The position numbers and the translations under genes were made by a program. The notes under the pieces were generated by a model. That model saw only the letters and a list, made by a program, of their open reading frames with translations. It was not told where the DNA came from and ran no database searches. A stretch of 64,000 nucleotides of DNA from Hydractinia symbiolongicarpus. Its lineage: Eukaryota > Cnidaria > Hydrozoa > Anthoathecata > Hydractiniidae. The stretch lies in assembly GCF_029227915.1 (NCBI RefSeq), contig NC_079881.1, positions 20,931,501 to 20,995,500 of the forward strand, read 5' to 3'. This document shows positions 26,671 through 64,000 of the stretch, piece by piece; the stretch's first letter is position 1; every line of letters starts with the position of its first letter.

Positions 26671-29600
26671 CTACTTGATACAACTTGACAACTCACTCAA
26701 AACAATATCATCCCCCATTTCGATTCTTTTATAAATCCCTCTCGAACCTCTCAAACAAAGCAAACAAGCATGAATTAAAGCAAAACAAATCTTAGTTCTG
26801 ACCCAAGATGATGCAACAGAAATATTTATTTTACGTTTTTCGGCGATCATTTCTGAGAGACGCTTGTAAAAAGTCGCACACTCTCTTCCCATTCCTCCGT
26901 AAAGAGAAAATACCAGTGGCGTGAATGTCCCGTTATCAACTTTGTTGATGCGAGTGTTGTATTGCCTTTTCTTCTCCGCCTCATTCTTTGCATAGCATTG
27001 TTGGAGAGTATGCTGAAGGTGTCTCGAAGCGTTGGGATCAAAAACCCTTACGTCGAAAAATGCTTGTTGACCCTTCGTCCAAAATCCCCGAGCACGTACA
27101 TCCGTTCTTACATCATCCCCCTTTTTCACAGATTCTAAATCAAAAGTTTCGCCAGTCAACCCAATTAGCGAAGGCTCAATTGCCACATCCTTACAAACCT
27201 CACCTAACATGGATGCCGTTATGTCACGTATGTTGTTGTGTCGAAGCGTGACAAACCCACCTTTCTTACAACTCAAACAATGTTGAATGTCAAATGTCGA
27301 CCCACAAACACAATGCGTCGGTAATCCTTCAACAGGCCAGTTAAAACGGAGCTTTATTATTCCATCCCAAAACTGCTGCTTGTTGAGATCAAATCCGTGT
27401 TCAGCATATGGCAATACTGTCAACCAGTTGGAGCAACCTTTCTCACTGCATATGTCGTTTAATCGTAATCATTTTTCGTCTAAGTTTTTTTTAACATCTG
27501 TTAATCTGTCCTCATGACGTTTGTTGCGAGAGTCCTTGATTTGATTCTTCAAATGACGTTTTTCAATCTCGCAGATAGATTTGTCCACTTGCTCGTAAAT
27601 GGCTTTGGAAAGTGAAGCAGTGATGGAACGAGAGTTGTCATACTCAAAGTCGCTTTCATTCACGAAATTAGTGATTCCCAAGCCACCCAGACGAATCGGT
27701 AAGGATAGGAGATCCCTTTCAGCGTTTGAGCAGCAATGTCCTCCGGTAATTGCTGGAAGAAATTCGTTACGTATGATATCTTCGATTGGTTGTAAATTTT
27801 TCGAAATATTTGGTATAGTTCTCATCAAATACGTAAATTTCGATTTGAAACCAGCGTTGAAGGCAGTAAATGCAGACTGTGGTTCCATAACAGCAATCTG
27901 TGAAAGTAGCTGGAGTTGATTCGAAAGATCTTGAATTTTACTATTCACATATTGGTTTTTGTAATTGATATCTCCAATGACAGCTCCAAGGTGTCTTTGA
28001 CCCGATGACGTTATTTTCACATGCATCTCTTTAAAAATTTCGTTTGCGCTTTCTATATATCTTGCTTTGACAATCAAATAAGACTTGTCAGCCTTCGGAA
28101 AGTAACCAAATTTCGGCCCAATCGAAGTCAATTTTTCCCAATAGCTCTTTATCTCTGACAATTTACCAGCTACAGTGAAATCATCCGCAAATGCAACATG
28201 TTTTGCCGTATTGTTACCACTAGTGTTCATAAAATCAAGAAGAATTCTAAGAAGAGGCGAAACTCCAATTGCGTATGCCGCCATAGAGGTCGGATCACCT
28301 TGAGTAGTCCCTTCCTTTGATAACAGTTCTTTACCCCCAATAACAAACAAACGTGCCGGAACATTGCAACAATTTTCCATGAAAGTAGAAATAAGAGGAC
28401 AAAGGACTGCAATATTATGTAGCATCGCCTTCCGATTGATAGAATTAAATGCATTCTCAGCATCGATCAGTAGCACCGCTTCTGTTTCTTCATTCTCGTA
28501 AATATCATGCATAGCATGAATTGCCGCCTCTGCACCCGCGTCCTGTCCAGCACAGACTTGTAAAGACCCAGTTGATTCCATGATGTCCTTTTTAGCTACA
28601 CGCATAACTACCTTCCCAGCAATTCGTCTCAAAACCTCTCCTACCCCAATGGGCCTCAAACCAGGATTCTTATTCAAAGGGATCATACGCCATGCCACAA
28701 AAGCTTCCAAACAATCACCACCACCCTCTGAGTCAGTTATCTTCTCCGTGCACAATTTCTTTATCATATCAACAATAGCCTTCCGCAAATCTGAGTTCGT
28801 AGTACCAAACGAAGAAGAGCATAATATTCTCCTCCATCCATCGCCGTCTAGACCCGATGGTCCAGATCCTCCTTTCGTGTGAGCAGCAACATCCAATACA
28901 AGGTCTTCGTCAATGACGTCATAGGCAATGGGGTGTATTCTCTGTAACGGAAAATTGAGTAAGATTTCATCATCCCCACATACCTCTTGTGCATTCGGGT
29001 GCTTCTGTTCTAACAGCATCAAGGTCTCGTCATTTAACGGAAGAATTCCATTCTGCATACTATTAGATAATAATCGCATTGCTGAGTTGACGTCTCCTTT
29101 CTGCATGAATAGTTTAAACTTTTTAGATATCGCCGATATATCTCTCTTTGCATATGCGTTCGTCATACGGCTTTGTATAGTTAAATATTCTGTATAAAGT
29201 TCCAAGAAGTTTCCTTCGTGCCACATTTTCAATCGCTTTTCGAGAGCTAGTTGATGGTCTTTCGCTTTTGATTTTTTACTTGGTTTCTGTAGTAGCAAGG
29301 CTGGCATTACATGGATCGCTTTCATTGCAATACTGCGAAGAGGTGAACTATTGTTCCAAGCATTAACTAGACGAGTGAGTTCCCTAATATAAGACTTTCC
29401 AGCGTTACCTGATGGTAGTATAAACAAATTCTTTTTCCAAAACACAATCTCATTATAAATCATGTCGAGATCTTTGCTAACTTTTTCGCCTTCTACCTCA
29501 TTCCACTTGAATTTAAATAAAGTTTCTTCCTTCGGTGTTTGCGTCGGTGAGTTGTCTACTAATGATACCTCTTTTCTTTTGCAAGCTTTCAAATGAACCA

Positions 29601-29766
29601 AGAGTCCTTTGCTCGTCTTGAAAGTTCTTTTGCATCGTATACATGAATTTCTCATAGTTATCGTCAGATTGTTCATTTGCGCATCGTTCCCGGTGGCGTC
29701 TGTGTTCATCACTAACGGCGTATTTGTTGCAGCCATAACTTGTCCCAATGTGTTATCAATTCGCAA
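26671..29766 (-). pseudogene. Reverse transcriptase with C2H2 finger and restriction-like endonuclease
   Basis: A reading frame of about 1,030 codons is interrupted by a single in-frame TGA (27469-27471). An N-terminal C2H2 finger (CIRCKRTFKTSKGLLVHLKAC) is followed by a linker and an RT domain: GGSGPSGLDGDGWRRIL, LLIDAENAFNSINR with the first Asp, GTTQGDPTSMAAYA, and VAFADDFTVAG with the Asp pair. After the nonsense codon come a CCHC-like knuckle (CVCGSTFDIQHCLSCKKGG ... RHN) and a PD-(D/E)XK-like motif (RTDVRARGFW, then QQAFFDVRVFDP). This is the domain order of R2-type non-LTR elements. It lies between the inverted ends of the P-like unit, directly upstream of the transposase on the same strand. 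No poly(A) or own target duplication was seen. Confidence 0.85.
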
Positions 29767-29932
29767 AGTTCATATGTGATTCAACGTTTATAGACGTACA
29801 AATAACTTAAGAATGTAACTTTTGGTTTCGTGATTAGCTGTTTTCCGTTAGCGGAAAGACGTCCGCCATCTTTGGCCTATTGTTACTGTCCAGACTATCT
29901 TTTTTTCTTATGACTATGAGTGTATGTATGTA

Positions 29933-30977: not shown

Positions 30978-31306
30978 TCCGTGCGGTTCATCTCATTTTA
31001 CAGCTAAAACGTTTTGCCAGTGCCAACGGCCTTGTGTCAAAAATTGCCTCTCGTATTACTGCTTACCCTGGTACCCTTTCCATACCTTTAACCGTAGATG
31101 GAGAAGTGAAATTTCGTAAAAATTTTCAATTAAGGGCTATTATAAACCATTGCGGCAACTTAAATAATGGTCACTACACAACCATAGCCTTTGACCAAAT
31201 GGTACACAGGTGGATACATTGCAACGATAGAGCAGTAATTTTCTGTGATGACCGCCTTATTAACAGTCACGAGTCATATGTTTTCTTTTTAGAAGAGCTG
31301 AGATAA
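30978..31306 (+). pseudogene. USP-domain C-terminal fragment, 5'-truncated retroelement copy
   Basis: From GTGCGGTTC (30978) the sequence matches 53500-53824 closely and encodes the last third of a ubiquitin-specific protease domain: SKIASRITAYPGTL, NGHYTTIAFDQ with the catalytic His, and HCNDRAVIFCDDR with the Asp/Asn box, ending LEELR. The front of the domain, including the catalytic Cys, is absent. A one-base deletion near 30985 breaks the upstream frame. Its 3' UTR follows directly. Confidence 0.88.
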
Positions 31307-31781
31307 GAATATTTTAACCGGAATGAGTCAGCAAGGGGGCTTGACTACACTCAGTCTTGTCTTTGGAGAGTGGCGACTCCACTTATTACCCCAGTTAAAA
31401 AAAAAAATAATAAATAAAAAAAAATATTTGCAGGGGGGGTTGATCACACATGATCTTGTCCTTGGAGAGTAACGACTGCACTTATTACCTGAGTTAAAAA
31501 CAAAGAATAGCACAGTTGAACAGAAAGTGGTCAAAGTTAATTTTAGGAAGATAGGGATGTCTAGTTTCTGCTGATGACCGTCTGCGGACCTCTTCGAGGT
31601 GACTCAGCTAGACATCCAGGGTACTTAGTTCAGAAATATCCTACCTGCCCTTGGTTAAAGTTCGTTCATCTTTTCAAATGTGTTGTGTCGTTTTTATTTT
31701 ATTTTTTATATATATATATTTTTTTTAATTCCTTGTAAAAAGGGAGAATTGTGCTTTTAGAGGCATATTCTCTAGAGGAGT
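31307..31781 (+). repeat. 3' UTR of the USP retroelement, left part
   Basis: It matches 53825-54304. It contains two related copies of a motif with CTTGTCTTTGGAGAGT, then a GACTCCACTTATTACC-like block, ending CCCAGTT or CTGAGTT, a hairpin ACCTCTTCGAGGT near 31594, and a tail TCCTTGTAAAAAGGGAGAAT before AGAGGCATATTCTCTAGAGGAGT. An EnSpm transposon is inserted at 31781; the UTR resumes at 44738. Confidence 0.88.
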
Positions 31782-44730: not shown

Positions 44731-44737
44731 CACTGGG

Positions 44738-44822
44738 GTACAACCTCTATCTTGTTTCCAAAGACCTAACAGGTTGAGTTCATCATTGCGGTGGCTTGCC
44801 ACCTCTTTGTAAATTATTTTCC
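44738..44822 (+). repeat. 3' end of the EnSpm-split USP retroelement
   Basis: GTACAACCTCTATCTTGTTT up to CACCTCTTTGTAAATTATTTT matches 54304-54386 and ends where both copies lose similarity, which marks the 3' terminus of the retroelement. A short pairing is possible between GTGGCTTGCCAC and its own complement. Confidence 0.85.
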
Positions 44823-45173: not shown

Positions 45174-45922
45174 CAAAGAGTTTCCTTTAAAATTGTAGGA
45201 ATAGCCACCAGTGGAACAGTAATTGTGCGCTGTCCCAGTTGGATGGTCTTACTCCATCTAACTAGAACGAGAATATGGTCATCATGAAAAGTAAAATCAG
45301 ACCGAACTAGTTGTTTGAGCGGATTAAATATCGTAGAAGATGCCATCTATAAATGTGACTTACGTAACAGACCAAAAAATGAAACTAAACAAACAGCCCA
45401 AAATGAAGCATGAAAGCTACAATTTAGGTTAAGGCGTGAACGAATGCCAAAAAGAAGAGCAGTGGTAATAGGAAGACGTGGCTTGGCCAGAACACCAAGC
45501 ATACGCTTCATACCTTTTAAAACTGTGGATAGTGTCCAATTATTGGTTAGAGGATTAGCATATCCCATCTCAAGATGTAGAAGGCCAACAAAATTTAGAT
45601 ACATACAAACTGATTGTTGTAGTAAAAACCTAGCCAATTGGGCAATATATAGGCATAAAAATTCTGTGGAGGCAGGCACAAGTGGCGAAGACATCTGGCT
45701 ACAAAAATATTCATATGCCTTGCGATGCGTGCGATAGCTCTTTTTTGTATTCTCAGCATAGGTGGCCTGCCGAAAAAGGACAACGTCGTGCACCAACTCC
45801 GAAACGAAGGGGGGCAACTCTAGAGGAAGGAGAATACAAAAATTAGCTACCACAGATGGTATACTTACCAATGAGAAAATAATAAGAATAGGCAGACATA
45901 TGATTGATGGCAACCAAATCAC
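45174..45922 (-). pseudogene. DIRS tyrosine recombinase, truncated before the catalytic Tyr
   Basis: The N-terminal SAM-like domain is present (YAENTKKSYRTHRKAYEYFC) and the catalytic domain starts with FFGLLRKSHL, which carries the first catalytic Arg. A TAG follows at once, and the same frame then gives VRWSKTIQLGQRTITVPLVA, the beta-hairpin after box A. Nothing resembling the HxxR and Tyr boxes follows before the frame ends at 45174. The enzyme is therefore missing most of its active site. Confidence 0.72.
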
Positions 45923-47440
45923 AGACTGAAGTCAGTGAGTTGAGCTGCAAAAAGTGCAAAAATGATAATAAGTGTTGTCTTGAATGAAGACGTGATATGT
46001 CGTCAGCAAGGACATTCTGAGCACCAGCTACATGCAAAACCTTCAAAAGAAAATTGAAGGTAGCCGATGACCAAAACAACTGACGTAAATAGTCCATCAT
46101 AACAGGGTGATTGGTAGTTCCTTTATTAAGCATAGCAACGAAGACATGGATAGTTTTGTTCTTCCAAGTGGGAGCCCAGCGAATATCAAAAAGAACTACA
46201 CACAGGGCTTCCTTAAAATTAATATGCAGAGGCAAGAGGGGAATGGTCTACCCATAGATGAGAATAGAACCAATCACCCTCAAAAAAGGCACCAACAGCG
46301 TCAGAGCAAGCATCAGTTTGCAGGCTGGTAATAGGTCTTTGGTCATAGAAATCGCATTGTCCATTAAACACACCCAAGAACTGATCCCACCAAGCTATAT
46401 CCCTGTGAAATTCGAGCGTCAAGCGACACTTCGGGGCAGGGGAAGACAAGGTGTTCATCAGATCCAGGACACGTCTCAAGAACGTTCTACCACCATACAC
46501 GATTTTACAAGCCCAATTTAGGCGACCAGCAAGACGTTGCAACTCATTCTTAGAGGCTTTCTGCTTGGTTAAAAAATTTGAGACTACTTCCCTCAATGCA
46601 TCCAGTTTAGCAGGTGGAAGAGAAAGGGTAAGTGACAGTGTCAAGCAGAATTCCAAGAAAAGTAAGTTGCTGGCATGGAGGAACCAACATAGCAGGGCTA
46701 AGCTAAAACCCTAGTGCAACAAGTAATTTACAGAGTGTGTTATAGGCCTCATAACATTCAGTCTGTGTTCGGCCAATAACAAGAAAATCATCTAGGTAAA
46801 CAATAACGAGAGGAAAACCTCGTCTTAGCATCATACGATAAACAGATTGTGTAAGGCGATGAAATATTCCAGGAGCACTTCGACCTCCAAAAGGAAGTCG
46901 AAGTCGACAAGATATGAGTATCGAGTGCTTCCAGAAAACCGCCATTTTAGACCAAACGCAGCATAGTTTGATTGATGAACAGGTAGTGACCGATATGCAT
47001 GGCGTAGATCAACCTTGGCCAGAAAATATCCCTGTTTGATCATAGCACAGGCATCATCGATAGTTTGAAATTTTTGTTTTTCAATATCAATGTACGTATT
47101 GACACCCTTTCCAACTGGCATGGAACAGTCATGTATAATGCGTAACTCGTCAGAGTCAGGTTTGGGGACAGCCCTAAGAGCACTGACAATGGTAGGTTTA
47201 CATTGAGTAAGAATATAGTTACCAGTTTTAAGTTCATCCAGCAGAGTAGCTTCTACTTTCATATGAGCTGTAGGACTGGTAACAGAAAAGTAGTTATTCA
47301 TTTCGGCAGGCAATAAATCAGAGTCCTTAGGAAGAAGCTGAAAACCACAGTGAATTCCATTAAGGAGGAAGTCACGATCTGGGTCTTCAGCCAGTTCATT
47401 GGTCCATAAGTCAACATTAAGAGGAGTGCGAAATTCTGAG
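45843..47440 (-). pseudogene. pol: DIRS reverse transcriptase and RNase H
   Basis: RT begins near 47430 in one frame and is readable at 47313-46831: VPKPDSDELRIIHDCS, YFLAKVDLRHAYRSLPVH with the first Asp. The next frame (46945-46703) has FGGRSAPGIFHRLTQ and VIVYLDDFLVIGRT with the YLDD box. RNase H is at 46656-45843, split by a frameshift near 46225: LQTDACSDAVGAFFEG, then INFKEALCVVL and NVLADDISRL. At least three frameshifts make the copy inactive. Confidence 0.82.
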
Positions 47441-47445
47441 GGTAT

Positions 47446-48883
47446 TCAATTGTCAGAATTGTGGTTTTGTCCAGAATGAGGTTTGCCACAAGCCTGATTA
47501 CCAATTTTGCGGTTGCAGACGTGGGTGAATTTACATTCTGTTTTCTGGCAACCTTTTTGGCGGTTAAAATTACGACATATTTCCACACCGGAAGAAGTAT
47601 GTGTAGGAAACCCTGAAGACGATCCTGAGGCAGGTGAACCTGAATTTCCCTTACTTAAGGTACTGGAAGGGTTACAGACAGGAGGGGAGACCCAACGAGG
47701 TATAAGCATCACTTCATGCAAATGGCTATTGTCAAAGCTCCATGGATTGCCATAAGTGTGCTGAAGAATTCGATATTCATCGTCATACTTTAGCACAGAC
47801 TCCCAGGTGTACTTTCTAGCCAACTCTAAGATCTTAATGGAATAAGACAAATAGTCACGTAAATCGGACGAGGTTGGCAATCTGGCAGAAGACGATAATT
47901 CATAAAAAATTCTCAAATTAGCTATGTTATATTGTTCCATGGAAAGAGATTCCAGTCTTGGCTTCTTATTTCCAATGGCCAACATTAGCGTAGTTTGCGA
48001 ACCAGGATCAGTAGAAATAACTTTCTCCTGCTCCACAGGACGAAGACGAGACACAAAATCGACAATACGAAGTGGCTTACCATTTCCAGTGTTTGAAGAA
48101 AGTGCAGGGCACAGAAACAATGCTGAACTACGGTCTTCTTGCTGGCGAAAAACATCCGATAGGGAGCGTGTTTGTTGTTGTGACATGACAGTGCGATTGG
48201 TCAACAAATTGGCGGACTGTTGCGGAGCAAGCAAGGAAGCAAAACAAGATGGCGGTTGTACGTCAAGAGGTGAAGGGCGGAGATTGTCTTGGACACGATT
48301 GGTTGGATTTACAGTTTTGCTGCAACGGGGAAGTGCTTAAAATTTGTGCTGGGCGGGAATTTCTGGAAGAAGCTGAGCGAAGCCTAGCTAATTCTGATTG
48401 TCGAGCAGCAATCTGATTGAGAAGGTGTTGCTCTTCTGTTTGTAAACTTTCCCTTAGGGATAGCTCTTCCTGTTCTAAGACAGCCAGCTGATTTCGAAGA
48501 GCAGCTAGCTGAGACGCCGAAGAAGATTTGTTTGGGTTGTTTAGGTGAGACTGCAGAGGCGAAGATCTGTGGATTGAAGACATTGGGTTATTAGCGATAG
48601 TTGAGGAAAGTGTTGAAGTAGCTGATGTGACAGTGCTGGTAGCGCTAGAACGACGACCTGGACAGTGACGACTGGGAATACCAAAGTCGTGTAGAGCCAG
48701 AAGTTCCTTGCAGCCAGGACATTTTGGGATACGTTTCTTTTTGAGTGTGGACGATTCCTCAAGAGCGACAGACATTGCAGCAGATTGGAAGGTTTGTGAA
48801 GTTGAATCTTCATCTTCTGAGCCATCTGGCGTTTGAGTAGGTGAGATAAAATATAACAGCATCCCTATAGGTGATAAATTCAT
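47446..48883 (-). pseudogene. gag: DIRS gag-like ORFs with CCCH zinc finger
   Basis: Two overlapping frames. 48883-48263 has a cysteine motif (CPGCKELLALHDFG ... HCPG), Ser-rich linkers and a coiled coil that includes QLAALRNQLAVLEQEELSL. 48255-47446 has a helical domain (DYLSYSIKILELARKYTWES) and a CCCH finger (CRNFNRQKGCQKTECKFTH) with a second Cys/His group behind it. The frame change near 48250 is either decay or an overlap between two ORFs. CCCH-type gag proteins are usual in animal DIRS elements. Confidence 0.7.
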
Positions 48884-49394
48884 GTTTAATTAGCCAAAGA
48901 TTGGTTTGATTGCAAAATGATTGATTAGATATAAGTGGATTAATAAGCAGCAGACATAAGCATAAGAAAAACTGCTAGAACTGAAAAGGAAAACCATGAG
49001 GCAACTGCAGCTTAAATACTAGCAAGACTGCTGACCAAAATATATGCTGCTGACCAGAAAAGGCACATAGGTAAATGGTGAACTAACTATGGGCAATACA
49101 AACCAGAGTACTCTAGGAAGAAGATCTATATATGTGTGCATTTAAACACTCATAAATATATATTTATGAGCCACATACAACCTGCGATAGGAGAGATATA
49201 TTTTTTGATGCCACGATTCTATGCTATAATGCTACGATGGATACGATGCTATGATACGCTGCTACGATGGATACGATGCTGCAAGGCTACGATTTGCGCA
49301 AAGGAGAACGACTATTTATTATTTGCTCATCTCATGCGCTGTTATACGCTATGTATGCAGGAGGGAGACTGTCATTAGGCAGGTCCACAGCAAC
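48884..49394. repeat. Non-coding, with short imperfect repeats at 49226-49295
   Basis: No gene. Repeated words GCTACGATGGATACGATGCT appear about three times in 70 bp. The stretch leads into a 3' UTR fragment of a USP-type retroelement. Confidence 0.6.
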
Positions 49395-49765
49395 AATTAT
49401 CTGTGTAAGGCTGAGTGTTGGAGCTCCATAACACGTGGAAAGCTACATCCAGGGTCACAAGTCCTGGCGCGCAGATAGTTGGTTGCTTCTTAAACACATT
49501 CTCTAAAGAATAATTTTAAATTTATCCGTTTAAGGATATTCACGTTATGATAAGTTTTATTTATCTTATTTGTACCTATTCAATTCATTTTGAATTGCTT
49601 TAATATTTATTGTTTAGTGTTGCGTTCTGTCGCTGTTGTATTTTTCTGCCTTTTACGGTCAATGTTTTTAGGAAATCCTTGCAAAAAGGGGGATTTTGCT
49701 TTTTTGAAAAATCTCTAGAGGGTTGCAACCTCTAACTATAGGAGAACCAGCTGTCATTAGACAAG
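49395..49765 (+). repeat. Solo 3' UTR of the second USP-retroelement family
   Basis: It matches 55630-55945 in order: GTGTAAGGCTGAGTGTTGG, CCATAACACGTGGAAAGC, CACAAGTCCTGGCGC, then the tail TCCTTGCAAAAAGGGGGATT, CTCTAGAGGGTTGCAACCTC and GTCATTAGA. No coding sequence remains in front of it, so it is a strongly 5'-truncated copy, as usual for target-primed retroelements. Confidence 0.8.
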
Positions 49766-50193
49766 AAATATCATTACAGCTAGCTGTTTTGTCACCTCAT
49801 CATCTAATAAACTGGATGCAATGGTATGATGTAGCGATGGTTATGACGTGGATAATTCTTTTCACAAGTAAATAAAATTGTTAATTAGAACATAAACAAA
49901 AGGTTTAAACTGACCAACATTTGTATGCTGATAAAATTAAAGACCTATCTTGATGGAACACATATCTAGGTTTACAAGAAAGTGTTAATTTTTGTTAAGC
50001 TTTATACTTTGTGTATTGATTGAGATTAAACTTAATGTTCTTAATAATGAGAAGGTTTAACTAGTGCTAACATATATTAAAACTAATATAAACTAGTGTC
50101 ATAAATTTTTGTAATACACTGAACGAAGTCCGTGAATAAATCTTTGTCTTTGTTTATGTATTCGCCCAAATGAGATTTAAACTGTGCCTTTGT
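49766..50193. other. No gene seen
   Basis: AT-rich spacer between the retroelement 3' UTR and the Merlin relic; no repeats or ORFs that I can support. Confidence 0.4.
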
Positions 50194-51559: not shown

Positions 51560-53824
51560 ACCTGATGGGAAATTCTTAAGTTCATGTTCAATAAACACTA
51601 CTGATTCATTGACGGACCGATCTGTACGGAATCTCTCGATTTTACCAGCGTTGTTAGAATTGAGGTTTGTTATTACATCTTCAAATTCTGACTTAAGAAT
51701 GCCTCTAAATTTACTGTGCGTACCAGATTTAAAATCTGGAAATTGGAAAGTTGATGAGGCAGTTCTTTTGGCGGATAGTCAGCTCAATTTCAAAAGGATT
51801 TTAGGTTTGCATCAGACTGATCGAGCTGGCTTAGGGCTCTTAGACCACAAAAATATACCACCAAAAGGCAATTATGCTTACCGAAGCTTGTTTCCAATAT
51901 CATTGAAGAAAATAAAGAAGATATTTACCATGCCAGAGCTGTACAGTTGCATTTGCAAGGCAATTGGACGAAATGGTGCTCTTATGTGAAAAATGATTTA
52001 TCTTGGAGAACAATTCTTTCACTGCCACAATGTCTAACTTCCTTTTGTATAGGGGCAACCTACGACACCCTTCCCTTTCCAACCAATCTTGTGAGATGGG
52101 GAATTGAGAAAGACAAAAGTTGCACTCTGTGCAAGAAACCATCCTCAAATGTCTCTCACATATTGGGTGCCTGTAGGACCTCCCTTACGCAGGGTAGATA
52201 CACATACCGTTATGACTCGGTTTTAATAGTTTTGGTTAAGGCATTAAAAGAGTTTTTGGTATCATATGAACCTCTTAAGGTTTCCAAGTGCAACAAAATT
52301 AATTTCATTCCGGCCGGTCAATCACCATTTAAGATGAGGCATACAAAGTGTCCAGGCCTTCTTCACCTTGCTTCCGATTGGAAAATAATGTCAGATTTAG
52401 ATTCCGTTTTAGTTGTTCCACCATACATTGCAATAACACAACTACGCCCAGACGTGTTATTAATATCCAGTTCTTCCAAAACTGTAATTATGTTAGAACT
52501 GACTTGTCCATGTGAAGAGAACACGGAATATTGGCACAAACGAAAGCTTAGCAAATATTCTTTACTTTGTTATGCTATGAAAAACAATGAATGGATCGTG
52601 CATTTCTTTGCCATTGAGGTGGGTGCAAGGGGTTTCTGTTCAGAATCAATAAGGACCTGTTTTCGTCACCTTGGTTTCACTAACAAGCCTTTACGTTCCC
52701 TATTAAAATCCCTAACTTTTACCTCCATGAGTGCTTCTTTTTACATCTGGATGTCTCTAAATTCTGCCACTTGGGTTGAGCCTGAAAAGTCCCCAATCAT
52801 TCCTGAAGTTTCTTCTCTTACAAATATGGAATGTAAGAAATCAAAAACCCCTGAGAAATCTTCCGCAAATCACACAAAATCTTGTAAAATCAAAAAACCC
52901 GAAAAACTTGCTACAAGGTCGTCCAAAACAACAGTCGCATTGCCATCTAACCCTGATTTTAGGAATAGCGGTCTAAAAAACTTGGGAAACACATGTTATG
53001 CAAACTCCATCTTACAATGTTTTTTTAAACTTCCAAAAGTTAAAGAAGCCATTTCTATCAGCAAAACAACCTCAAAGTTAGGCGAAGCATTTGTAGGTGT
53101 TCTCCAAAGTTTGGCTGTTTCTAGAAGTCCAGTTGATTCCTCTTTGCGTGCTATGAAACATCATATCTCAGCTGCGAAGGGAAGTGCATTTAATATCTTT
53201 GCTCAGCACGACGTCCCCGAGGTTCTTGAATATCTCCTACCTGGTCTGTCATTAGACTTTCCATTTCTTGGAAGTCTTTTTAGTATTGGCATCAAGACAT
53301 CAACCACTTGCAATTCATGTCATATTACCAGCTCCTCAGAAGTTATAGCACCATGCATCCAACTTTCTCTGCACCCTACGTTACAATCTTCTTTAGATAA
53401 TTTCTTTGAAAGCGAGGAGTTGTCAGACACCAATGCCTACTTCTGCCATGTTTGCAACGCTCATCAAACTGCTCTAGTTGAAAAAGAGGTAGTGTCGTGC
53501 GGTTACCATCTCATTTTACAGCGAAAACGTTTTGCCAGTGCCAACGGCCTTGTGTCAAAAATTGCCTCTCGTATTACTGCTTACCCTGGTACCCTTTCCA
53601 TACCTTTAACCGTAGATGGAGAAGTGAAATTTCGTAAAAATTTTCAATTAAGGGCTATTATCAACCATTGCGGCAACTTAAATAATGGTCACTACACGAC
53701 CATAGCCTTCGACCAAATTGTACACAGGTGGATACATTGCAACGATAGAGCAGTAATTTTCTGTGATGACCGCCTTATTAACAGTCACGAATCATATGTT
53801 TTCTTTTTAGAAGAGCTGAGATAA
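51560..53824 (+). pseudogene. Non-LTR retroelement ORF end: CCHC knuckle, restriction-like endonuclease and USP domain
   Basis: The frame starts in the region after the RT domain (LKSGNWKVDEAVLLADSQLN, RAGLGLLDHK). After a frameshift near 51890 it runs open for over 600 codons. QGNWTKWCSYVKNDLSW and YDTLPFPTNLVRWGI precede the knuckle CTLCKKPSSNVSHILGAC, then the nuclease motif RPDVLLI ... VIMLELTCPCEE ... KRKLSKY, as in R2/NeSL/Hero-type elements. A 70-residue Lys/Ser/Pro linker leads in frame to a USP domain: GLKNLGNTCYANSILQC with the active Cys (codon 52994-52996), HDVPEVLEYLL, CNSCH and CHVCNA zinc pairs, NGHYTTIAF with the His (53690-53692), and HCNDRAV. The RT core is absent because the copy is 5'-truncated. 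The family cleaves ubiquitin from proteins; here a role in the host response is inference. Confidence 0.9.
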
Positions 53825-54386
53825 GAATATTTTAACCGGAATGCATCAGCAAGAGGGCTTGACTACACTCAGTCTTGTCTTTGGAGAGTGACGACTCCAC
53901 TTATTACCCCAGTTAAAAAAAAAAATAATAATAAAATAAAAAAATATTGGCAGGGGGGGGGGGGGGTTGATCACACATGATCTTGTCTTTGGAGAGTAAC
54001 GACTCCACTTATTACCTGAGTTAAAAACAAAGAATAGCACAGTTGAACAGAAAGTGGTCAAAGTTAATTTTAGGAAGATAGGGATGTCTAGTTTCTGCTG
54101 ATGACCTTCCGCGGACCTCTTCGAGGTGACCCAGCTAGACATCCAGGGTACTTAGGTTCAGAAATATGGGTCGAAACCTACCTGCCCTTGGTTAAAGTTC
54201 TGTTCATCTTTTCAAATGTGTTGTGTCCTTTTTTTTTTTTTTTATATTTTTTTAATTCCTTGTAAAAAGGGAGAATTGTGCTTTTAGAGGCATATTCTCT
54301 AGAGGAGTACAACCTCTAGCTTGTTTCCAAAGACCTAACAGGTTGAGTTCATCATTGCGGTGGCTTGCCACCTCTTTGTAAATTAT
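53825..54386 (+). repeat. 3' UTR of the USP retroelement, uninterrupted copy
   Basis: It corresponds to 31307-31781 plus 44738-44822 and thereby defines the empty EnSpm site at 54303. A run of 14 G lies near 53951-53964, and an A-rich tract with AATAATAATAAAATAAAAAA before it. Two direct copies of the CTTGTCTTTGGAGAGTGACG motif are about 110 bp apart. Confidence 0.88.
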
Positions 54387-55238
54387 TTTCTTCACGCAGG
54401 ATTAATAAATGAAAAAAACACCTGTTACGCCAATTCCATCCTGCAATCATTAACTGCAATTCCATCATTTTGGTTACAGTGTGCTTCGGAATCTTCTCTT
54501 GTTTCTCCTCTATTGAAGTCTGTTATGCTGAGTATGTCCATGCTGTCCCAGTCTTCCACAGCTGTTTACCCTTCCGCCTTCTTAAGAGCCTTGCTGCGTG
54601 AGATGTCCAGCATTAATACCCAGCAGGACGTGCCAGAAATACTGCCTCATGTCTTGGGTGAATTAACAGGCCCTTCAGTTATCGCAAATAATATCATCAC
54701 CAACATTATAACCACTACGACGTCATGTAATGCATGCTTCTTATCAACTAGCAGGAAAGAAAGTATGCCTATTGTGCCACTCCCTATCTCAAACAGCGTT
54801 ACATGTTCAATTAATTGTTTTTTGCAGCCCGAAAATTTGTCTGGAAATGACAGGTGACTTTGCCCGCAGTGCTCTTCTTATCAAGACAGTACAAGCGAAA
54901 CGGTTTTCACCCAGTGTGGAAATATTCTAATTATCCAACTGAAGAGGTTACTTGATGGAAGAACCCTAAAAAATAACAAATCTGTTACCTGCCTTGCTTC
55001 AAATGAGGACATTCGTTCGCTCTGAGCCAACGGATGACATATCATTCAACAACAAATAATCATTAGCTGCCACTATTAATCATTCGGGCACCCTAGGAGC
55101 AGGTCACTATTGTGCATTCATTAAAGATCGCAACTGTGGCTCATGGTTAAGATGTGACGTTAAAGCAGTTTTTAGAGTTGCACCATCCGATTTAAATAAC
55201 TCTTCTGCGTATGTGTTGTTTTTTGTGAAAATGTAAAA
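54387..55238 (+). pseudogene. Second, diverged USP-domain retroelement copy
   Basis: Directly behind the first element's 3' end, a USP domain restarts with GLINEKNTCYANSILQSL (active Cys present), then QQDVPEILPHVLGEL, SCNACF, LCPQCSSYQDS in a shifted frame, ILIIQLKRLLDG, and ATINHSGTLGAGHYCAFI with the His. It ends YVLFFVKM and a TAA at about 55236. Frameshifts near 54840 and 54870 and a TGA near 55024 disable it. Identity with the first USP is low, so it is from a separate family with its own 3' UTR. No nuclease part is present because of 5' truncation. Confidence 0.85.
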
Positions 55239-55960
55239 ATTGTATGATTAACATTCACATAAAAGGGGGAGGGTTATCTTTCCCTAGCGGTTTTGTATTA
55301 CCCGGCTGTTTCTGTCATAAGCAGTCTACCGTGAACCCAGAGTTTGCTCACTCTTCACTCTCTTATAGAGTTATCATAAGAAGCATAGCAAGGGGTTCGA
55401 CTTTGTCTTGTCTTTGGGTGCGACGACCGCACTTTTTACCCCAGTAGGGAGGCCAATTTTGCTCACTTGGTCTACAGGATTAACGATCCTGCTGTACCCA
55501 TAGTTATTCTTGTAAGAAGCTCTGCAAGGTGGTGTGAAATTTCTCTTTCATGTCTTCATGGTTTCACGCTCACGCATAGCACCCCAGTATCTTCAGGCTG
55601 GTCCTGACCAAGGCTGGTCCTAAGCATCAATCACCTGTGTAAGGCTGAGTGTTGGGATCCCGTAACACGTGTAAAGCTGCAGCCAGGTTCACAAGTCCTG
55701 GCGCATAGGTAGTTGTTTGCCCCCTTTTTTATTGTTTTTATTTATTTGTATATATATACGTTTTATGTCAATATATGTTTTTGTTTTTGTTTTGTTGTTG
55801 CAATATTTGTATTGTCCAGAGGGTTGCTTTTTCAGTTAACTTGGTTGTACAGACCATCCTTGTAAAAGGGAGATCTTGCTTTGCATAGAGATCTTTAGAG
55901 GGTTTAACCTCTACCACTTAAAAAAGAGTCATTAGAGTAGTCGAGTCACTACAGCTTGCA
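55239..55960 (+). repeat. 3' UTR of the second USP-retroelement family
   Basis: It contains CTTGTCTTTGGGTGCGACGA with CACTTTTTACCCCAGTA, a motif shared with the first family, then the block GTGTAAGGCTGAGTGTTGG to CACAAGTCCTGGCGC also seen at 49398, and the tail TCCTTGTAAAAGGGAGATCT, CTTTAGAGGGTTTAACCTCT and GTCATTAGAG. The order is the same as in the solo copy at 49395-49765. Confidence 0.82.
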
Positions 55961-62326: not shown

Positions 62327-63516
62327 TTACAGCACTTGACTGTAAACAATGTTTGGTGTATAACATTTATGCTGAACATAACCTTGAGCTTCTGTTTGAC
62401 GAATCTTTACCTTCACATCTTCAAAGGAACGTGGACGTGAAAATACAACATATAATTGTCCATGAGAAAAGCATGGTCTGTGAAAATAAATTCCAACTTT
62501 ACTAAATGTTTGTCCCTGAGATTTATTAATTGTCATAGCATAGGCCAAACGTATAGGAAGCTGACGTCTTCGTAGCTGAAAAGGAAGACCAGTGTCAGAA
62601 GGCGCCAATTGAATTCTAGGTATTACCACTTTTTTACCAGAAGCAACACCAGTAATGATTTCAGCATCGATTACATGTTGCTATAACTGTTGTCATATTA
62701 ATCTAGTGCCATTACATAATCCATGTTTTAAATCTAGATTTCGAAGAAGCATTATTACTGCACCTATTTTTAGTTGCAGGTTGTGTGGTGGCATACCAGA
62801 AGGTGTAATTGAATTGATAAACTCGACTGGATAAAGTGCAATTTCTTCAGGACCATCTGAAACTACAGAGTCAGCACTGTTATATAGTACTATTTGCCCT
62901 GGAATTTTATTTACTATCTTGTTATAAATATCAAGGGCACCATCATTTGTAGGGGTCAGAATAATCCTACTGGCAAAATCTGCCAAGTTACCATCAAACA
63001 CTGCATCAACATGTGATTGATCATTCTGCTCACGGATAATGCAAGTTTCTGGTATTTCTGGTATTAAGTTGTAAAAGCCAGTTTGCAAAATTCTGCTAAT
63101 TCTGTCCAGCTCTCACATTGTGTGTAAGCTTAAATACCTGAACAGCTGGCCAAATATAGGAGCTTTTAAGACATGTTTCTACAATTTTAGCAGGTCTGGC
63201 TCTCTTCATTACTGGCAAAGTTTGTGGAAAGTCCCCTCCTAGAAGAATGACTTTTCCTCTAAATAAGTTGTCAACATTAGAAATATCCCTAAACATGGTC
63301 TCGATAGGTTGAAGGGCATGCTTAGGGATCATTGATGCTTCATCAAAAATGTATAAGTCTTGTTGCATCAGGAATATGGCATGATTACTGGTAGAAGGAA
63401 CATTGCAAGTACTTGTCTTCACAAACGGTACAGACAATCTAAAAAGACTGTGGACAGTCCTCCCTCCATCTAAAAGTGTTGCCGCAATGCCGGTCCAGCT
63501 TTCATTCCTCTTCGCT
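62327..63516 (-). pseudogene. Helitron Pif1-like helicase, C-terminal part
   Basis: Blocks in order from 63516 down: SWTGIAATLLDGGRTVHSLF, LYIFDEASMIPKHALQPIE (motif II, DEAS), ILLGGDFPQTLPV (motif III), then after a frameshift near 63100 the segment FASRIILTPTNDGALDIYN and LRNLDLKHGLCNGTRL. A second break lies near 62690, then PIRLAYAMTINKSQGQTF (motif VI) and VVFSRPRSF. The Walker A motif and the Rep nuclease are missing because the gene is cut at 63516 by a USP retroelement fragment. Helitrons replicate by rolling circle. Confidence 0.85.
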
Positions 63517-64000
63517 TTGCAATTCATGTCATATTACCAGCTCCTCAGAAGTTATAGCACCATGCATCCAACTTTCTCTGCACCCTACGTTACAATCTTC
63601 CTTAGATATTTTCTTTGAAAGCGAGGAGTTGTCAGACACCAATGTCTACTTCTGCCATGTTTGCAACGCTCATCAAACTGCTCTAGTTGAAAAAGAGGTA
63701 GTGTCGTGCGGTTCCCATCTCATTTTACAGCTAAAACGTTTTGCCAGTGCCAACGGCCTTGTGTCAAAAATTGCCTCTCGTATTACTGCTTACCCTGGTA
63801 CCCTTTCCATACCTTTTACCGTAGATGGAGAAGTGAAATTTCGTAAAAATTTTCAATTAAGGGCTATTATCAACCATTGCGGAAACTTAAGTAATGGTCA
63901 CTACACAACCATAGCCTTCGACCAAATGGTACACAGGTGGATGCATTGCAACAATAGAGCAGTAATTTTCTGTGATGACCGCCTTATTAACACTCACGAG
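63517..64000 (+). pseudogene. USP-domain retroelement fragment running off the window
   Basis: From GCAATTCATGTCATATTACC it matches 53309-53800 at well over 95 percent. It holds the zinc pairs (CHVCNA), the SKIASRITAYPG stretch, SNGHYTTIAF with the catalytic His and HCNNRAV, where the other copies have HCND. The active Cys lies before the truncation point and is absent. It is joined abruptly to the Helitron helicase, consistent with a 5'-truncated insertion. Confidence 0.88.

Follow-up and report, generated by a model that had tools for sequence, protein, structure and literature searches.

A truncated Hydractinia retrotransposon copy that ends in a complete ubiquitin-specific protease domain

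Among the non-long-terminal-repeat (non-LTR) retrotransposons that encode a reverse transcriptase (RT), a zinc finger and a C-terminal restriction-like endonuclease (RLE) in a single protein, the NeSL and Utopia elements are among the closest known counterparts of the element described here, and some of them also carry a cysteine protease of the kind that processes ubiquitin or SUMO. According to the published account (PMC4640811), this protease is Ulp1-like and N-terminal in the nematode NeSL families and in Utopia-1_TSP, in agreement with an earlier note on the present DNA, which named Ulp1-type partners placed elsewhere in the open reading frame (ORF). By contrast, in the 64,000-nucleotide stretch of Hydractinia symbiolongicarpus DNA analysed here (C7:20931501-20995500, hereafter the window), an element of otherwise similar build carries a ubiquitin-specific protease (USP; peptidase C19) C-terminal to the RLE, and this arrangement extends across a large clade. 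The feature is a truncated copy of a non-LTR retrotransposon whose protein ends in a USP with every catalytic and zinc residue present, and this USP likely strips ubiquitin from the element's own RT-endonuclease protein (probability roughly 55%).

Our literature search on retrotransposons with a USP, deubiquitinase (DUB) or OTU domain, in which part of the papers was judged by titles and abstract openings and which had Repbase Reports and most subscription papers outside its scope, returned no report of such an element. In the portion consulted, the main text of the Hydractinia genome paper has no word beginning with 'ubiquitin' and leaves about 60% of the repeats unclassified (PMC11067881). 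Given this negative result and the N-terminal position of Ulp1 in NeSL, the USP is judged to be a new module at a new position; what we would call new is the enzymatic module and its place within an RLE-type long interspersed nuclear element (LINE), the RLE-type LINE itself being known.

The copy in the window and its protein

The window copy belongs to family F1 (F2 and F3 are sister families; Lnnn denotes genome loci and Pnnnn database proteins). Its parts, with residues numbered in the 667-aa ORF, are:

51716..54391, forward strand: the whole 5'-truncated F1 copy, from the last part of the segment that connects RT and RLE through CCHC, RLE and USP to the 3' untranslated region, delimited by the start of homology to the longer copy L009 (window 51716) and by the common 3' end
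51821..53824, forward: open frame of 667 aa, CCHC-RLE-USP
52121..52174, forward: CCHC knuckle, C101-x2-C104-x8-H113-x4-C118
52406..52777, forward: restriction-like endonuclease, PD-(D/E)XK (RPD 52445-52453, E226 52496-52498, K242 52544-52546)
52778..52969, forward: RLE-USP linker (predicted local distance difference test score, pLDDT, < 50 at residues 325-377)
52970..53815, forward: USP domain
52994..52996, forward: USP catalytic Cys392 (123/123 USP domains)
53309..53320, forward: zinc pair 1, Cys497 and Cys500 (121/123 and 123/123)
53444..53455, forward: zinc pair 2, Cys542 and Cys545 (123/123 each)
53690..53692, forward: USP catalytic His624 (119/120)
53744..53746, forward: USP third catalytic residue, Asp642 (119/120)
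53825..54391, forward: 3' untranslated region (3'UTR) of the element, ending without a poly(A) tail

The earlier note had put a CCHC knuckle, a nuclease of PD-(D/E)XK type and a USP domain in one continuous frame beginning at 51560. The linkage stands and the start does not, since stop codons occur in this frame at 51560-51820 and the open frame spans 51821-53824. Two frames join near 51884-51890, so the window copy is broken there, and owing to its 5' truncation it has no RT.

The nuclease has an R2-like endonuclease fold with its catalytic residues, and RPD (R209-P210-D211), E226 and K242 are conserved in relatives; its model matches R2, an element that to our knowledge carries no USP. In the CCHC knuckle, H113 and C118 are invariant and C101 and C104 are retained in at least 90% of one set of 35 sequences, while all four residues are invariant in a set of 40. 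Pfam assigns UCH (PF00443) to residues 384-662 (E 2.4e-27), and zf-RVT is found under its cut-off (E 2.2e-4). The USP possesses complete Cys, His and Asp/Asn boxes and a zinc ribbon with both Cys pairs, as had been read from the letters alone, and the residue counts given above come from 123 USP domains longer than 230 residues, in which Asn387 (121/123) and Asp464 (123/123) are also conserved. The structure prediction that the note had proposed for this part gives a USP fold, and its best profile and fold matches are USP2, USP8, USP46/12 and USP21, with the SAGA deubiquitinase Ubp8 (solved on the ubiquitinated nucleosome) and USP18 bound to ISG15 also among the structural matches. The element USP shares the predicted fold, the catalytic triad and the two zinc pairs with these cellular USPs, at about 25% identity, and differs from them in being fused to a retroelement RT-endonuclease.

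Copies in the Hydractinia genome and relatives in databases

Searches of the 481-Mb Hydractinia assembly returned 80 scored matches to the 667-aa ORF, a lower bound (there were 1783 candidates at the first pass) in which some rows are pieces of one locus. Fifty-four of the 80 run from the nuclease through the junction to the USP Cys box, which indicates that the element itself encodes the C-terminal USP. Nuclease copies without a USP at this junction, or a junction found only here, would have spoken against this. Six matches stop at residues 340-399; in four of them the USP is matched immediately downstream (C12:17.495, C4:24.675, C13:21.910 and C6:22.053 Mb), in a fifth (C4:25.086 Mb) the distance to the 3'UTR fits, and the sixth (C13:23.739 Mb) is assigned to neither class. 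The Hydractinia database protein P0048 was considered as a USP-less member and rejected, because its genomic copy has gapped USP remains downstream that the gene model omits.

The junction is not unique either, as RT-CCHC-RLE-USP frames occur in Hydractinia and in dozens of database proteins. The full-length copies with an RT in the same ORF that the note had asked for are present in families F2 and F3. Near-identical frames of 1426 aa surfaced when the genome was searched for the USP family (150 rows from 1015 candidates), and the ten loci fetched on account of their long frames comprise eight of F2 (six with 1426 aa, one with 1423 and one with 1345) and two of F3 (1422 and 1379 aa). Compared with L046, the seven other F2 copies are 99.4-99.7% identical over 4.8-5.9 kb, and from this we conclude that their insertion was recent.

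A 3'UTR query gave 40 scored loci among 907 candidates, and all 39 besides that of the window itself stop at query positions 565-571, corresponding to window 54389-54395. The 5' starts of copies vary, and the 3' end is incomplete in two copies (L007 and window 30980-31781). One fixed 3' end, 5' truncation at various points and scattered flanks are the expected outcome of target-primed reverse transcription (TPRT), and RLE-encoding non-LTR retrotransposons leave copies of this kind. R2, of which TPRT complexes have been solved (9nl3, 9nl2, 9dou and 8gh6), has one fixed target in the 28S rDNA, whereas 37 different 3' flanks were found among the 48 matches read for the Hydractinia element (some loci were fetched twice). 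Target specificity was therefore rejected: the flanks have nothing in common except a T/pyrimidine bias at positions +1 to +8.

Three protein searches gave 228, 323 and 220 matches, of which the best 120 of each were listed; the 228 are the database proteins that match the 667-aa ORF at E <= 0.001. Architectures were scored for 217 proteins (the window ORF and 216 from the first and second listings), many of which seem to be cut by contig ends: 83 are RT-CCHC-NUC-USP (NUC, nuclease), 67 CCHC-NUC-USP, 5 NUC-USP, and the other 62 lack a USP. Wherever a USP is present, in 155 proteins, it is placed after the nuclease. RVT_1 is detected in P0121, P0144 and P0191 (E 6e-19 to 3e-15), and the combination of an RT, a CCHC knuckle and a C-terminal PD-(D/E)XK nuclease in one ORF identifies RLE-encoding non-LTR retrotransposons. 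No Pfam match to a Ulp1-like protease was found in the same three proteins, and in this respect they do not resemble the part of the NeSL clade that carries one. N-terminal C2H2 zinc fingers were also observed, in P0191 by a scan and in P0180 and P0185 from precomputed domains, and the relatives reach lengths of up to 2,151 aa (P0229).

Among the listed USP-bearing matches, an organism name is attached only to two proteins from Hydractinia and to a pair of 'Pseudomonadales bacterium MAG' records, the latter taken for contamination. Outside the USP clade, the named relatives are fish and scallop proteins annotated by NCBI as 'uncharacterized protein' (P0238, P0244, P0251, P0252, P0255 and P0259), which share the RT-CCHC-RLE order and 34-36% identity with P0183 but end 2-11 residues past the RLE match, without a USP. 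These fish and mollusc relatives may be HERO-like. P0213, from a sea urchin, likewise has no visible USP; its nuclease is matched only in part, and the protein was counted in neither class.

Copies of this lineage are also annotated as host proteins in the NCBI gene models P0001, P0071 and P0048, and P0071 bears the label 'ubiquitin carboxyl-terminal hydrolase 51-like'. At least 28 of the 150 USP-domain rows of the genome overlap matches to F1, with the other families not yet counted; annotators should be aware that element copies can pass as host ubiquitin hydrolase genes.

History and possible role of the USP

The USP appears to have travelled with the rest of the element. RT and USP distances correlate with a Spearman coefficient of 0.70 (0.67 for RT and nuclease), a value reached in 0 of 999 permutations, and the RT and USP trees have 22 of 59 bipartitions in common, compared with at most 2 in 200 label shuffles; the one host USP included (L056) served as the outgroup of one of these trees. 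Rooting on the distant LINE of the window itself was unreliable (branch 6.24), and the USP-less fish elements were used as the outgroup instead. In a FastTree of 137 rows, in which this outgroup is not clean (the best branch still misplaces 2 rows), all 75 USP-bearing rows lie within one clade of 102 (support 100), with 8 changes; in an IQ-TREE of 73 hand-selected rows, all 40 USP-bearing rows fall in a clade of 50 rows with SH-aLRT 100, at a cost of four changes. The simplest reading of this second tree would be one gain and three losses of the USP.

With regard to constraint, the median pairwise identity among 62 full proteins is 53% in the RT, 45% in the nuclease and 27% in the USP. Between F2 and F3, synonymous sites are near saturation, and the proportions of nonsynonymous and synonymous differences (pN and pS) are consequently given instead of a direct dN/dS: pN is 0.196 and pS 0.778 in the RT, 0.371 and 0.77 in the USP (46% aa identity), and 0.567 and 0.697 in the linker, whose pN is the highest of the segments compared. 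A USP that diverges faster than the RT while keeping its active site would suit a role facing a changing host factor, a fit that falls short of proof.

A deubiquitinase encoded together with a polymerase is known from turnip yellow mosaic virus (TYMV), whose PRO/DUB deubiquitinates the viral polymerase and opposes its breakdown (PMC3744425). That enzyme differs in having an OTU fold, in belonging to a plant RNA virus and in acting as a processing protease as well, and the analogy is functional only. By the preferred mechanism, the element USP would fold and cleave ubiquitin in the manner of USP2, and the flexible linker would hold it near the RT-endonuclease, where its nearest substrates would be that protein and whatever sits at the cut DNA. 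It would then act in cis on the RT-RLE protein or its ribonucleoprotein (RNP), as PRO/DUB does on its polymerase, and the element would escape proteasomal turnover by the host between translation and TPRT. This self-deubiquitination is preferred because the USP stands behind the nuclease in each scored protein that carries one and because of the viral precedent. Protection of the RT or RNP, and action on ubiquitinated chromatin at the target, had both been suggested tentatively in the earlier note. We also suggest, as a tentative view held at a little under even odds, that a single capture of a host deubiquitinase, joined on behind the endonuclease, gave a whole LINE clade a counter-defence that it has kept ever since in an arms race with the host ubiquitin system and that only some lineages have lost.

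Several observations weigh against these proposals. The lower conservation of the USP relative to the RT is what relaxed constraint would also give, and the near-complete F1 copy L009 lacks the Cys box. In the young F3 pair, the USP has 9 nonsynonymous and 3 synonymous changes (pN 0.013, pS 0.016), and six F2 copies have 2 nonsynonymous and 1 synonymous variants, so that no sign of constraint on the USP is seen among young copies. The nearest neighbour is identical by RT and by USP in just 27 of 62 proteins, which leaves room for some exchange. Furthermore, 22 rows of the FastTree clade of 102 are scored as USP-less and 5 as cut, next to the 75 with a USP; some of the USP-less rows are cut or mis-modelled (e.g., P0048) and do not represent natural ends, but two groups within the clade consistently end a few residues past the RLE, and such losses imply that the USP is dispensable in some hosts. 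Finally, the present data do not separate self-deubiquitination from an action on chromatin.

In that last case, the substrates of the USP would be chromatin or repair proteins of the host where the element inserts (mono-ubiquitinated H2A/H2B or PCNA, for example), and its action would open the target or protect it in the course of TPRT. The linker next to the endonuclease, predicted to be disordered, would put the USP at the cut DNA, and Ubp8 is among the structural matches; on the other hand, the best matches indicate no single chromatin subfamily, and the three full-length USP-bearing relatives scanned contain no histone-reader domain; we regard this role as rather unlikely. Many viral deubiquitinases blunt host innate pathways, and the USP might do so in trans by removing ubiquitin or ubiquitin-like modifiers from antiviral or piRNA-pathway factors. 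Its faster divergence than the RT, as for a host-facing domain, and the match to USP18 bound to ISG15 are consistent with this role, although that match concerns fold and not specificity. In trans no fusion would be needed, yet the USP follows the nuclease in 155 of 155 proteins, from a search that favoured similar lengths and did not look for free forms; we regard a role in trans as improbable.

If the USP were carried along neutrally as a passenger, or only bound ubiquitin without catalysis (e.g., to recruit the RNP), its absence from some lineages within the clade, its position as the least conserved of the three domains and the lack of visible constraint among young copies would all be explained. 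A passenger would lose its active-site and zinc residues, however, and ubiquitin binding by itself would not require the Cys; despite the 27% median identity, the catalytic Cys is invariant, His and Asp are each kept in all domains but one, and the zinc Cys are present in 121-123 of 123 domains, making such a role very improbable. The truncated, RT-less state of the window copy might suggest that a copy of a host USP gene was joined by chance to a single retrotransposon insertion, or that the assembly is at fault, but the copy counts refute this, as the same junction recurs in 54 of the 80 genomic matches, in several diverged families and in 155 of the 217 proteins, from many contigs.

If self-deubiquitination is correct, we know of no earlier transposable element that removes ubiquitin from its own replication machinery. 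With a retrotransposon-borne enzyme that reverses ubiquitination, the ubiquitin-proteasome system would become a direct front of host control over LINEs, and a testable one; intact, near-identical copies in a laboratory cnidarian, together with USP-less sister lineages for comparison, offer a practical test system.

Neighbouring remains, tandem layout and 3'UTR motif

Further remains of the same lineage in the window are:

30980..31781, forward: second F1 copy, USP C-terminus and 3'UTR, without the last ~83 bases of the 3' end (94% identity to 53496-54308)
44735..44821, forward: fourth F1 copy, 3' end alone (98% identity to 54304-54390)
49368..49809, forward: F3 3'-end fragment (96% identity to L053)
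54392..55720, forward: relic of another USP family of this lineage, abutting the 3' side of the F1 copy; a degenerate USP reaches to 55233 and is followed by 3'UTR
63517..64000, forward: third F1 copy, USP part, continuing beyond the window edge (97% identity to 53308-53790)

The relic at 54392..55720 shares 47-52% aa identity with F3 and 40-52% with F2, and its part at 55021-55720 shares 71% DNA identity with L053. Because the relic starts at 54392, where the F1 copy ends, the latter was probably inserted into it; the upstream half of the relic was not found within the window.

In seven of the eight fetched F2 loci (L046-L051 and L054), and in neither F3 locus, a 5'-truncated 3'-end fragment precedes the full unit head-to-tail; these loci were picked by their long frames, and the share does not apply genome-wide. 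The fragments measure 112 to at least 1228 nt and are 98-100% identical to the unit's own 3' end, the internal junction is identical in all seven loci, and in L047 a further unit follows. This layout suggests that the 3' end of the upstream unit may hold a promoter for the F2 unit. A pseudo-LTR arrangement from tandem or partial-tandem copies is a trait of Penelope-like elements (PMC11167929), and the resemblance is no more than a shared trait: their endonuclease is of GIY-YIG type, whereas the nuclease model here matches R2, and no GIY-YIG match was found in the window ORF or in P0121, P0144 and P0191.

Diverged families have a 3'UTR motif in common, CTTGTCTTTGG...GACGAC...TTACCCC, which is doubled in F1 (window 53855-53923 and 53963-54031), has further sites at window 55385-55446 and L046:5990-6055, and is perhaps a recognition site of the RT. 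A structured 3'UTR element was rejected, as the folding of the shared motif does not surpass that of shuffled sequences (z -0.18 to -1.74 in four sequences), and Rfam has no match at the gathering threshold anywhere in the window.

Three other regions of the window, all on the reverse strand, were noted by eye. Positions 26671-29769 hold a very distant second RT element with a nuclease-like C-terminal frame, the LINE with the long branch mentioned above; frames at 45347-48889 read as a DIRS or tyrosine-recombinase-type retroelement; and helicase-like frames resembling a Helitron lie at 62327-63533, beside the start of the F1 copy at 63517.
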